DNA of 6,292 nucleotides, taken from NCBI GenBank assembly GCA_001871015.1, contig MNUO01000129.1:1-6292 (forward strand), in the 5' to 3' direction. Of this stretch, positions 2,851 through 5,934 are shown piece by piece (within the stretch, counting starts at the first letter, position 1; each line of letters opens with the position of its first letter). The notes under the pieces were generated by a model that was not told the origin of the DNA, did not search any database, and worked only from the letters and a program-made list of their open reading frames with translations. The position numbers and the translations under genes are program-made. This stretch comes from Candidatus Desantisbacteria bacterium CG1_02_38_46 (GTDB taxonomy: Bacteria > Desantisbacteria > UBA1551 > UBA1559).

Positions 2851-3245
2851 GATATTTGACGAGGGACCGTAGAATAGCACTGGGACGTATGATATTAAAG
2901 CATACAATCTTAGCAAAGAATGGAAAAGATTACTATTTTTGTCATCGTCATCCTTCCAGTAATAGAATATTTGTATTTCTGACTACATCTATGCCCAGGG
3001 AAGAGCGCGTTAAATTTCTACAGGGTTTAGTATTGGCTGGACAATGTAAATATAATGCCTTAAAAGGATTGGGGGTTGCCACAGAGCCAATTGGTCCCGG
3101 TCGTTCATATGATTTTGTCTTTCTCATGGGATTGCCAAAAATTAAATCTGGATTTGAAGATAAAATAAGTGAACTTAAAGAACGTGCTAATAGTATATGG
3201 ACAGATGAACACCAAAAGAATTTATTAGGTTATAATAATATATGA
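2835..3245 (+). pseudogene. Unrecognised protein, C-terminal fragment (part 2, after a frame change)
   Basis: This frame is open from 2835 to TGA 3243-3245. The first usable start is TTG at 2856 (129 aa) with no good Shine-Dalgarno, so independent translation is doubtful. The protein includes LTRDRRIALGRMIL, KDYYFCHRHPSSNRIFVFL, MPREERVKFLQGLV and LGVATEPIGPGRSYDFVFL. It has no transmembrane segment and no catalytic motif I can name. The preceding fragment ends in the overlap 2835-2850. Adding one T to the TTTT run at 2836-2839 would join them as ...KEQIEFFCSLGYLTRDRR..., a smooth protein of ~238 residues. I therefore read both as the C-terminal half of one gene with a 1-nt deletion, or a homopolymer sequencing error. 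An alternative is a small separate hypothetical gene starting at TTG 2856. Confidence 0.5.
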
Positions 3246-3246
3246 T

Positions 3247-3304
3247 ATTTTCACTATAAATACTATTTTCACCGTTTGGTGAAAATGGCAAAAATAGTGA
3301 AAAT
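3247..3304. promoter_or_regulatory. Nested double dyad, upstream operator of the AbiE operon
   Basis: Two perfect inverted repeats share one centre at 3275.5. The outer arms are ATTTTCACTAT (3247-3257) and ATAGTGAAAAT (3294-3304), 11 bp each. The inner arms are ATTTTCACC (3265-3273) and GGTGAAAAT (3278-3286), 9 bp each with a 4-nt centre. The core heptamers TTTTCAC/GTGAAAA on each side are exactly 18 bp apart. AbiEi-family antitoxins are known to repress their own promoters by binding inverted repeats, so this is the likely AbiEi operator, centred about 68 bp upstream of the predicted transcription start. That it binds this antitoxin is inference. Confidence 0.7.
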
Positions 3305-3308
3305 TAAC

Positions 3309-3337
3309 TTGACAAATCACTATTTTCATGCTATAAT
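3309..3337 (+). promoter_or_regulatory. Consensus sigma70-type promoter of the AbiE operon
   Basis: A perfect -35 TTGACA (3309-3314) and a perfect -10 TATAAT (3332-3337) are separated by 17 bp, the optimal spacing. Transcription would start near 3344, giving a leader of about 23 nt before ATG 3367. The spacer holds a heptamer-like half-site (TTTTCA, 3323-3328). A promoter this strong normally needs repression, which fits autoregulation by the antitoxin. Confidence 0.85.
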
Positions 3338-3365
3338 ATGGTGAAAACGCATAAAAGAGTGAAAA
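3319..3365. promoter_or_regulatory. Promoter-proximal operator half-sites over the -10 box and leader
   Basis: TTTTCAT (3323-3329, one mismatch to TTTTCAC) and GTGAAAA (3341-3347) form an imperfect dyad centred on the -10 box, at 3335. A further direct copy, GTGAAAA, lies at 3359-3365, just before the ATG. Successive starts are 18 bp apart (3323, 3341, 3359), the same spacing as in the upstream dyad. The 10-mer ACTATTTTCA occurs at 3262-3271 and again at 3319-3328. Occupancy here would block RNA polymerase directly. The last copy also lies where the Shine-Dalgarno should be, and the antitoxin has only a weak ribosome binding site. Confidence 0.6.
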
Positions 3366-3366
3366 A

Positions 3367-4467
3367 ATGGAAAATTTAATAGAAATTCAGGAACTAATTG
3401 AGAATGTTTTCAGAAACGTGCCTGGAATAACAATAGGAAGGATTGAAATGGACGAATATCCTTCTTCTGTCCCCGATTTACTATTTTCAGTAACCTGGGG
3501 TGGCAGGACTACAATGATAGGGGTTGAATGTAAAGCTTTAGGTGAGCCGAGATATGTCCGATCAGCCATTCAGCAATTAAAAGAACCGAAAACTATCCAA
3601 TCAGCGATTCAGCAACTGAAAAAGTTCATAGGACAAGCAGGGCAAGATATTTATGTTTACGGGGTTGTGGCTGCACCTTATATAAGCGGGGAGTCTTCTT
3701 CTATCTGCAAAGAGAACGGTATAGGATATATAGACCTTGCGGGGAATTGCTTTTTTAATATTAATAACCTCGGTCTTTATGTAGAAAAGCAGGGGTTTGA
3801 AAATAAAAAAGCAGAGCGTCGTCTTTTAAGGTCAATTTTTTCAGCAAAGGCAAGCAGAGTTCTTAGAGTAATGCTTTCCAATCCTAAAAAAAGTTGGAAA
3901 ATGCAGGAGCTATCAAATGAAGCGGGCGCAAGCCTCGGTCTCGTGTTTAAAGTTAAAGAAAGACTATTAGATTTGGAATATGCTAAAGAAGAAAAACGGG
4001 GTGTTTTTATTTCCCAGTCTGAAGAACTGTTGGAGAAATGGGCGGAGAATTACTCATTTCGCAGGAATAAATTAAACGATTATTTTGGAATGGGCGATGC
4101 CAAAGAAATAGAAAAAAAATTTTCAGACTATTGCAACGAAAAGCAAGTTTCTTATGGTTTTACTCTTTTCTCGGGTCTGGCTTTAGTTGCTCCATATGCA
4201 CGCTATTCAAGAGGGTTTGTTTATATTAAGGAAAAGGAGAAAATTCAGGAAATAGCAGAAACACTGGGCTTTAAAAAAGTTGATTCCGGAGCAAATTTTA
4301 CGATTCTTGAACCATATGATGAGGGTGTATTTTATGGAACAAAAGATATTAATGGGATTAAGGTAGTAACCAATGTCCAGATATATCTTGATTTGGTTGG
4401 TTATAAAGGCAGAGGTGAAGAATCGGCAAAATTTCTGCTTGAGCAAAGGATTAAAACTGAATGGTAA
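3367..4467 (+). CDS. AbiEi-family type IV antitoxin/transcriptional repressor with N-terminal PD-(D/E)xK-like domain
   Basis: This 366-aa protein is the presumed antitoxin and autorepressor of the toxin gene it overlaps by 7 nt. Residues ~1-145 form a restriction-endonuclease-like domain: PD at 36-37, then ECK at 54-56 (GVECKALGEPR), then Gln-rich helices, then a conserved GIGYIDLAGNCFF block at 118-130. Residues ~160-215 look like a winged helix (SRVLRVMLSNP, MQELSNEAGASLG, FKVKERLLDLEYA). Residues ~260-366 match the AbiEi C-terminal domain (FTLFSGLALVAPYARY; ending VQIYLDLVGYKGRGEESAKFL). In the first domain a 13-residue unit starting SAIQQLK is tandemly repeated at 66-78 and 79 onward. AbiEi proteins bind promoter inverted repeats and neutralise AbiEii without forming a stable complex with it (type IV). 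Whether the nuclease-like residues are catalytic is unknown. The start is fixed by the promoter and a 23-nt leader. Confidence 0.85.
   Translation: MENLIEIQELIENVFRNVPGITIGRIEMDEYPSSVPDLLFSVTWGGRTTMIGVECKALGEPRYVRSAIQQLKEPKTIQSAIQQLKKFIGQAGQDIYVYGVVAAPYISGESSSICKENGIGYIDLAGNCFFNINNLGLYVEKQGFENKKAERRLLRSIFSAKASRVLRVMLSNPKKSWKMQELSNEAGASLGLVFKVKERLLDLEYAKEEKRGVFISQSEELLEKWAENYSFRRNKLNDYFGMGDAKEIEKKFSDYCNEKQVSYGFTLFSGLALVAPYARYSRGFVYIKEKEKIQEIAETLGFKKVDSGANFTILEPYDEGVFYGTKDINGIKVVTNVQIYLDLVGYKGRGEESAKFLLEQRIKTEW
3562..3621 (+). repeat. 39-bp in-frame tandem duplication inside the antitoxin gene
   Basis: The codons for SAIQQLK at 3562-3582 recur at 3601-3621, exactly 39 bp (13 codons) later, and the two codons before each copy are also similar (VR and IQ). 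The copies differ at synonymous positions (GCC/GCG, TTA/CTG), so the duplication is not recent. It lengthens a Gln-rich helix just after the ECK motif. Confidence 0.75.
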
Positions 4468-5294
4468 AGCAAAGCGATTACAAAGAACCTGAAGTGCAAA
4501 TTTGTTTTTCAGTTCTGTTGGAATTAATGACAATTCTTGGCGGGTTCAGGGAAAACATCGTTATTGTGGGAGGCAGTGTCCCTCCGCTGTTAATTCCTGA
4601 AACAAAGCCGAAATATCCAGGCACTCTGGACATAGACATTGCATTAGATTTTAAATCTATAAGCGATGACTCGTATAAAACTATTTTAAAGACTCTGAAG
4701 GAAAAAGGTTATTATCAGAAAGAAGGTGACCAGCCCTTTAAATTTTACAGGGATGTCAATGAAATGACGGTTGAAATTGACCTTTTGGCTGGGGAATATG
4801 GTGGCACAGGGAAAAGCAGACGTCATCAAATTGTTCAGGAAGTAAAAGCAAGAAAAGTGCGCGGATGTGACCTTGTTTTTGACAGATTCATTAAAATCGA
4901 ATTATATGGAATTTTACCGGGCGGAGCAGCAAACAAAGTTACTGTAAAAGTACCGGAAATAGGGCCTTTTCTAATAACCAAAGGAATGGTATTGTGGGAT
5001 AGAGGAAAAGAGAAAGACGCGTTTGACATTTATTATTGTTGCAAGCACTATCCAGGAGGAATCCCAGCATTAGTTGAAGCAATAAAGCCTCTACTTGGCA
5101 ATAATTTAGTAAAGGAAGGGTTAGGTAAAATCAAAGCCAAGTTTGAAGAAATAAATTTTATCGGGCCCAATTATGTTGCCGATTTCCTTGAAATTTCTAA
5201 TGCAGAAGAACGTGATATAGTAAAAAGAGAAGCATTTGAATTAGTAAATACTCTCATGGAAAAATTCGGCATTGAACCGTTTAAGGAGATATAA
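4461..5294 (+). CDS. AbiEii-family nucleotidyltransferase toxin
   Basis: This 277-aa protein belongs to the nucleotidyltransferase (DNA polymerase beta-like) AbiEii/AbiGii toxin group. The catalytic motif reads VGGSVPPLL at 36-44 followed by TLDIDIALD at 55-63; D57 and D59 are the expected metal ligands. A third acidic residue is likely D107 in TVEIDLLAG. The downstream signature DRGKEKDAFDIYY (180-192), with lysines and D189, matches motifs III-IV of the family (K-x-KD-x-x-DIY). AbiEii toxins are GTP-binding and cause reversible growth arrest; related MenT toxins add nucleotides to tRNA 3' ends. The target of this one is not known. The ATG overlaps the end of the antitoxin gene by 7 nt, with AAAGGA at 4445-4450, so translation is probably coupled. 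All key residues are present and length is normal, so it looks functional. Confidence 0.85.
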   Translation: MVKQSDYKEPEVQICFSVLLELMTILGGFRENIVIVGGSVPPLLIPETKPKYPGTLDIDIALDFKSISDDSYKTILKTLKEKGYYQKEGDQPFKFYRDVNEMTVEIDLLAGEYGGTGKSRRHQIVQEVKARKVRGCDLVFDRFIKIELYGILPGGAANKVTVKVPEIGPFLITKGMVLWDRGKEKDAFDIYYCCKHYPGGIPALVEAIKPLLGNNLVKEGLGKIKAKFEEINFIGPNYVADFLEISNAEERDIVKREAFELVNTLMEKFGIEPFKEI

Positions 5295-5340: not shown

Positions 5341-5934
5341 GTGTCCCACGATATTATTGATAATTCAAATTTAAAGCTTGTCGATGTGCTGAAGGAGAAA
5401 TTGCTCATTTCAAAGCGGGCAAGTTTTGCTGTGGGGTGGCTATTTTTAAGTGGATTCAAAGAATTAAGGAACGAGATAGATGGTTTAGAGAAACTTGAGA
5501 TTATTGCCGGTCCCAGGACAAATAAACAGACCATTGAAGCAATGCTATTGGAAAAGAAATGGGAAAAAGCGGTTTCTGACAACCTTGAAAAAATGAAATA
5601 CCTGCCTGAGAATGAAAGACAAAAAATCCTAGACGAAGAATTCAGGGATTTGATAAATGACATAAGTTATATAAAACCCACAGAAGAAAATATTGAATTC
5701 TTAAGATGGTTTGCTGAAAAATTGAAAGAAAAAAAGATAGAGATAAGAATTTATTATAAGGCACCTTTGCACGCAAAACTTTATGTTTTTGAATACAAAG
5801 ACCAGAGACATGGATTAGGAGAGACAATTGTTGGTTCAAGCAATTTTTCTATAAGTGGTTTTGACCTGAATACAGAATTGAATGTTCGGGTGCTTGGCAA
5901 CGATAATTATGAAGATCTGTCAAAATGTGCTTAA
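5341..5934 (+). pseudogene. PLD-family nuclease domain, N-terminal fragment of a probable PLD-SNF2 helicase
   Basis: The 197 residues form one phospholipase D-like domain. The N-terminus (LKLVDVLKEKLLISKRASFAVGWLFLSGF) and the KLEIIAGPRTNKQTIEAM strand are typical of PLD domains that precede SNF2-type helicases in defence loci. A charged helical insert (~70-130) follows, then the HKD-like motif: H144-A-K146, E151, and GSSN at 165-168, then a conserved FDLNTELNVRV with E179. The protein ends abruptly at NYEDLSKCA, exactly where relatives normally continue into a helix and the helicase region. No helicase motifs follow, only 78 bp before parB. I read it as a truncated remnant, although a stand-alone PLD nuclease of this size (compare DrmC of DISARM) cannot be excluded. 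HKD enzymes usually dimerise to complete the active site, so a single domain could still be active. Confidence 0.7.

Follow-up and report, generated by a model that had tools for sequence, protein, structure and literature searches.

Among the closest described systems, AbiEi of Streptococcus agalactiae and Rv2827c of Mycobacterium tuberculosis, both antitoxins of COG5340, each bind the promoter of their own gene and repress it (PMC3985639, PMC7319586). The S. agalactiae promoter, PabiE (Dy et al. 2014), contains two inverted repeats of 23 bp, separated by 3 bp, each with one 11-bp perfectly repeated block (PMC3985639). The M. tuberculosis promoter, Prv2827c (Beck et al. 2020), carries two inverted-repeat sets within -1 to -131, made up of four 23-bp repeats with 13-bp gaps within the pairs and 4 bp between the pairs; one binding event takes place per repeat, several molecules are bound at once and the filling is negatively cooperative (PMC7319586). 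COG4861, which is equivalent to PF09952 (PMC7251935), has been treated as a family of its own, whose members are putative regulators associated with COG4849 nucleotidyltransferases, and was stated to be without sequence identity to COG5340 (PMC3985639). No operator for the COG4861 family was met in those non-subscription papers mentioning COG4861 that were examined by a term search, and no report of DNA binding by any COG4861 antitoxin was found.

The antitoxin gene and its surroundings

The DNA stretch analysed in this study (hereafter, the window) comprises 6,292 nucleotides from Candidatus Desantisbacteria bacterium CG1_02_38_46. The antitoxin gene occupies positions 3367–4467 on the plus strand. 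Its product matched PF09952 (E 1e-13; 52.3 bits versus a curated cut-off of 21; residues 217–362), and a structure model and fold matches were also obtained for it. According to Pfam, the window antitoxin is a member of COG4861/PF09952 (AbiEi_2), whereas the antitoxin of PabiE belongs to COG5340; the family and its pairing with COG4849 were already known. The protein consists of a NucS-like N-terminal domain, a winged-helix domain (about residues 151–215) and a C-terminal domain of nucleotidyltransferase fold. Model residues from about 150 to 229 matched many winged-helix chains, e.g., 3eco (Z 8.0) and 3nrv (Z 7.9), with middling Z scores and many consistent rows, and the C-terminal domain matched MenT1 (8rr5; Z 11.7, rmsd 2.7 over 119 residues). 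No solved structure clearly related to the antitoxin by sequence was found. The N-terminal part resembled NucS/EndoMS weakly and at low model confidence. Within this NucS/EndoMS-like region (3367–3770), the E-x-K glutamate (E54) was invariant in nine relatives and the lysine was not, so the N-terminal domain of the antitoxin may be a dead nuclease.

A DUF1814/AbiEii nucleotidyltransferase gene encoding the putative toxin (4461–5294, plus strand) is located directly downstream and overlaps the antitoxin gene by 7 bp. The putative toxin was 30% identical (E 2e-42) to a protein from locus L210 that matches PF08843 (AbiEii); the window protein alone matched PF12281 only, below the cut-off. The two genes are regarded as a putative type IV AbiE-like toxin-antitoxin operon. 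In the upstream part of the window, an Eco57I-type methylase ORF (1173–2567) ends in an early stop and is followed by ORFs 2542–2847 and 2856–3245 in different frames; they look like broken or frameshifted genes. On the other side of the operon, a PLD-like (NgoFVII/DrmC-like) ORF (5341–5934) is apparently cut short, with more coding sequence in another frame.

The 56-bp module and the promoter

The intergenic region is bounded by the stop codon at 3245 and the antitoxin ATG at 3367. The original prediction placed seven TTTTCAC/GTGAAAA half-sites here. The coordinates were right and six of the heptamers are exact, starting at 3248 and 3266 on the plus strand and at 3279, 3297, 3341 and 3359 on the minus strand. 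Dinucleotide shuffles of 3246–3366 contained on average 0.07 exact heptamers and never more than two (20,000 trials); thus, the six are not a product of chance. The remaining candidate, counted fifth in the prediction, is a doubtful one (TTTTCAT, 3323–3329, plus strand). It carries one mismatch, and a site as good arose by chance in 15% of the shuffles of 3304–3340. It also lies 5 bp off the register of the module described below, in which the missing left half-sites of the second copy would start at 3310 and 3328. No such heptamer was present in two relatives (L016 and L017) in which module 2 is likewise reduced to this half and the promoter has a similar position. The site at 3323 probably does not belong to the operator.

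Two 27-nt repeats emerged from the repeat search, an inverted one around 3275.5 and a direct one (3277–3303 and 3339–3365, 62 bp apart) in which the right arm of the former recurs. A 56-bp module, TTTTCAC-N11-TTTTCAC-N6-GTGAAAA-N11-GTGAAAA, present in one and a half copies, describes these repeats better than a seven-member array phased at 18 bp does. The module has two 25-bp arms of two direct heptamers each, separated by a gap of 6 bp. Module 1 (3248–3303, assigned to neither strand) is complete, with 20/20 core matches to the family pattern; its four half-sites form the predicted nested double dyad with a common centre at 3275.5. The left arm (3248–3272, annotated on the minus strand) consists of the outer site 3248–3254 and the inner site 3266–3272, 18 bp apart, and the right arm (3279–3303, plus strand) of the inner site 3279–3285 and the outer site 3297–3303. 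Module 2 is represented by its right arm only (3341–3365, plus strand), with the inner site 3341–3347 over the predicted transcription start and the outer site 3359–3365 just before the ATG; the place of its left arm is occupied by the promoter. A spacing of 18 bp, which had been attributed to every group of sites, holds for the direct pairs 3248/3266, 3279/3297 and 3341/3359. The 18-bp pair 3323/3341 is an inverted one, and the inverted pair of module 1 is spaced at 13 bp.

The promoter is indeed perfect, TTGACA-17-TATAAT with 12/12 matches, and consists on the plus strand of a -35 box at 3309–3314 and, after a 17-bp spacer, a -10 box at 3332–3337 preceded by TG. The complete module 1 lies upstream of the -35 box. 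In most relatives, TTGAC started upstream of the promoter-proximal module centre by 34–42 bp, most commonly by 36.5–37.5 bp, from which we infer, assuming normal promoter geometry, that the left arm contains the -10 box and that transcription starts close to the centre of the module. The window promoter lies approximately 9 bp further along than in the relatives (offset -28.5) and replaces the left arm. In a group of Pseudomonadota plasmid loci (L210, L211, L218, L220 and L221), the module is centred on the ATG, which, given the usual promoter position, suggests leaderless transcripts. The last site of the window spans -8 to -2 relative to the ATG and was predicted to cover the Shine-Dalgarno position; it covers the normal position only in part, and there is no clear Shine-Dalgarno sequence before the antitoxin ATG.

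Like PabiE, the region has inverted repeats that overlie the promoter of an operon for an antitoxin and a nucleotidyltransferase, and the antitoxin is a winged-helix protein, which in PabiE represses its own promoter. In contrast to the two recognition sites of PabiE, the window module has four heptamers, 25-bp arms and a 6-bp gap, instead of a pair of 23-bp repeats with a 3-bp gap and one block each. Conversely, no second heptamer at 17–18 bp was detected in PabiE, as printed in PMC3985639 (best score 17/42). Likewise, Prv2827c has two sets of inverted repeats before the antitoxin gene at which several molecules are bound, but here the distance from set to set varies among relatives and each arm contains two sites. 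The region would work like an AbiEi operator and is not of the PabiE type.

Conservation and specificity of the module

The conservation of the module was evaluated in 79 AbiEi_2-type antitoxin genes, comprising that of the window and relatives from genomes, contigs and plasmids. The sample holds near relatives, and about a third of it comes from a single family (f86). The scan covered up to 230 bp upstream of each gene and 50 bp into it, with a core pattern derived from the window sequence and a threshold of 15/20. The module reached this threshold upstream of 63 of the 79 AbiEi_2 (PF09952/COG4861) genes, 53 of which scored 19 or 20; a single one of 790 control pieces taken at these loci reached it. 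The upstream comparison proposed with the original prediction hence found the same sites before most homologues, consistent with a conserved operator of the antitoxin gene and with the antitoxin as its likely binder. The module-bearing genes span distant bacteria, Pseudomonadota plasmids among them; the phylum-wide searches yielded one to four genomes each. The mean best score of the 78 relatives was 17.4 at a direct spacing of 18 and an inverted spacing of 13, and did not exceed 14.1 at any neighbouring geometry. A search without an assumed motif also peaked at a direct spacing of 18 bp. Relatives failing the TTTCA pattern often had other heptamers (TTTTCCT, TTTTACC, GTTCAC, TTAGCTG), with a direct spacing of 17 or 18 and an inverted spacing off by a base or so, and a few (L167, L169, L171 and L244) had no convincing module upstream. 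The consensus of 37 aligned modules amounted to about 53 bits and separated the inner sites (TTTCA[CG]C) from the outer sites (TTTCACT); sites 6 and 7 of the window matched the inner and the outer consensus, respectively.

Many relatives have a single module. In relatives with two modules, the centre-to-centre distance ranged from 62 to 99 bp, without significant 10.5-bp helical phasing (Rayleigh 0.29; null 95% 0.46). The rigid unit is the module, with a near-fixed 18/13/18 spacing, and not the array, as the distance between modules is loose. These observations bear directly on the original interpretation, in which seven sites form one continuous array with 18-bp phasing that is filled cooperatively, the two groups of sites may be looped or sandwiched together and ribosome binding may be affected as well. 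The six or seven half-sites and the 18-bp direct spacings are there, and the last site abuts the start codon, as this interpretation has it. However, neither the variable and unphased distance between modules nor the many single modules fit such an array, its fifth member is off register, absent from L016 and L017 and could be due to chance, and the present reading takes the sites to be DNA sites. Repression at the level of ribosome binding was considered and set aside. The array, the looping and the ribosomal effect were left unsupported, and we consider the interpretation as a whole unlikely.

Exact 25-bp arms occurred three times in the genome of the window, all at this locus, according to a pattern search; the next best place, elsewhere in the genome, had one mismatch. 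Of 109 genomes around the G085 family, 56 contained a 19-base version of the module, and all the listed places adjoined an AbiEi_2 gene by coordinate comparison. A reversed control pattern gave zero matches across the same 109 genomes. The single-arm pattern GTGAAAA-N11-GTGAAAA was present in at least 120 stretches of viral contigs; single arms are therefore not diagnostic. No relatives of the antitoxin were detected in the viral contigs or in the phages searched.

For some of the antitoxin genes, no toxin gene was found nearby. In the f86 family (L157, L183–L198 and L205), an AbiEi_2 gene with the operator was present in 56 of 57 genomes, and a search of about 1.5 kb downstream, at the loci with enough flank, gave no AbiEii toxin. 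The gene adjoined recG in 13 of 13 cases tested. It may be classed as a putative orphan autoregulated antitoxin gene, perhaps a domesticated one. At another locus, from a WOR-3 genome (L016, 3968–6112), the gene after an antitoxin gene with this operator encodes a Schlafen AlbA_2 protein, and no toxin was found within 4 kb of the start.

The likely binder and the proposed mode of repression

The occurrence of a module with the same internal spacing before most of the related antitoxin genes indicates that it is very probably the binding place of the antitoxin. The recognition helix of the antitoxin was predicted at residues 190–202 of the structure model. It holds residue 195, which among the columns of the antitoxin is the most informative as to a C at the end (base 7) of both inner heptamers. 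Residue 195 was N in 50/50 proteins without a C-ending inner pair and K, R, Q or V in 13/13 with it, the C/not-C split having been chosen after seeing the data. For K/R versus other residues, Fisher's test among 25 representatives below 60% identity gave p = 7e-5, with ancestry ignored. Four independent pairs for residue 195 and base 7 were identified on the tree; two of them were on well-supported branches, both in the expected direction, and two are too few for significance. The co-variation supports the antitoxin as the binder, short of proof, and on comparative grounds the antitoxin is the likely binder of these sites.

Another regulator, encoded by the host or by a neighbouring gene, might occupy the operator instead. 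Nevertheless, the module tracks AbiEi_2 genes across phyla and genomic contexts, even where there is no adjacent toxin, appears nowhere else in the searched genomes and varies together with the recognition helix of the antitoxin, which makes a different binder quite improbable. That the dyads serve mainly as a terminator or RNA hairpin of the upstream gene is more improbable still, since the weak terminator score of the module 1 inner dyad is on the minus strand and the upstream ORF on the plus strand, the four sites, in their conserved geometry with 11-bp spacers, do not resemble a terminator, and the module overlaps the promoter in most relatives.

In all likelihood, the region is the autorepression operator of the AbiE-like toxin-antitoxin operon, bound by the antitoxin; both binding and repression are what we infer from the comparisons above. 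The unit of recognition would be the 56-bp module with its facing arms, in which the direct heptamers are 18 bp and the inner heptamers 13 bp apart. If the heptamers are read by the winged-helix domain of the antitoxin, a full module probably accommodates four winged helices, contributed by four monomers or by two dimers. The promoter-proximal module of most relatives lies over the -10 box and near the transcription start, so binding should block RNA polymerase. In the window, the antitoxin would fill the complete module 1 as well as the remaining arm of module 2, the right one, which lies over the transcription start and the 5′ leader. Filling of the sites would then lower the transcription of antitoxin and toxin together.

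A broader proposal concerns the COG4861 antitoxins as a family, and we give it roughly even chances. It states that their DNA recognition uses one platform of four sites, conserved in its spacing (direct 18, inverted 13, direct 18) and with distinct inner and outer sites. Each module would be bound by a symmetric tetramer or a dimer of dimers that has a direct-repeat contact built in, in a mode unlike that of COG5340 AbiEi. The platform would be kept as the heptamers change with the recognition-helix residues, and also in orphans without a toxin. With the operator described here, the COG4861 branch of AbiE-like systems, which is large and little studied, gains a concrete and predictive element of about 53 bits. 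It could be used to find AbiE-like operons, to predict repressor specificity from a single helix and to tell autoregulated orphan antitoxins apart from those accompanied by a toxin. A structural question arises as well, namely how winged-helix proteins are arranged on direct and inverted sites within one module.
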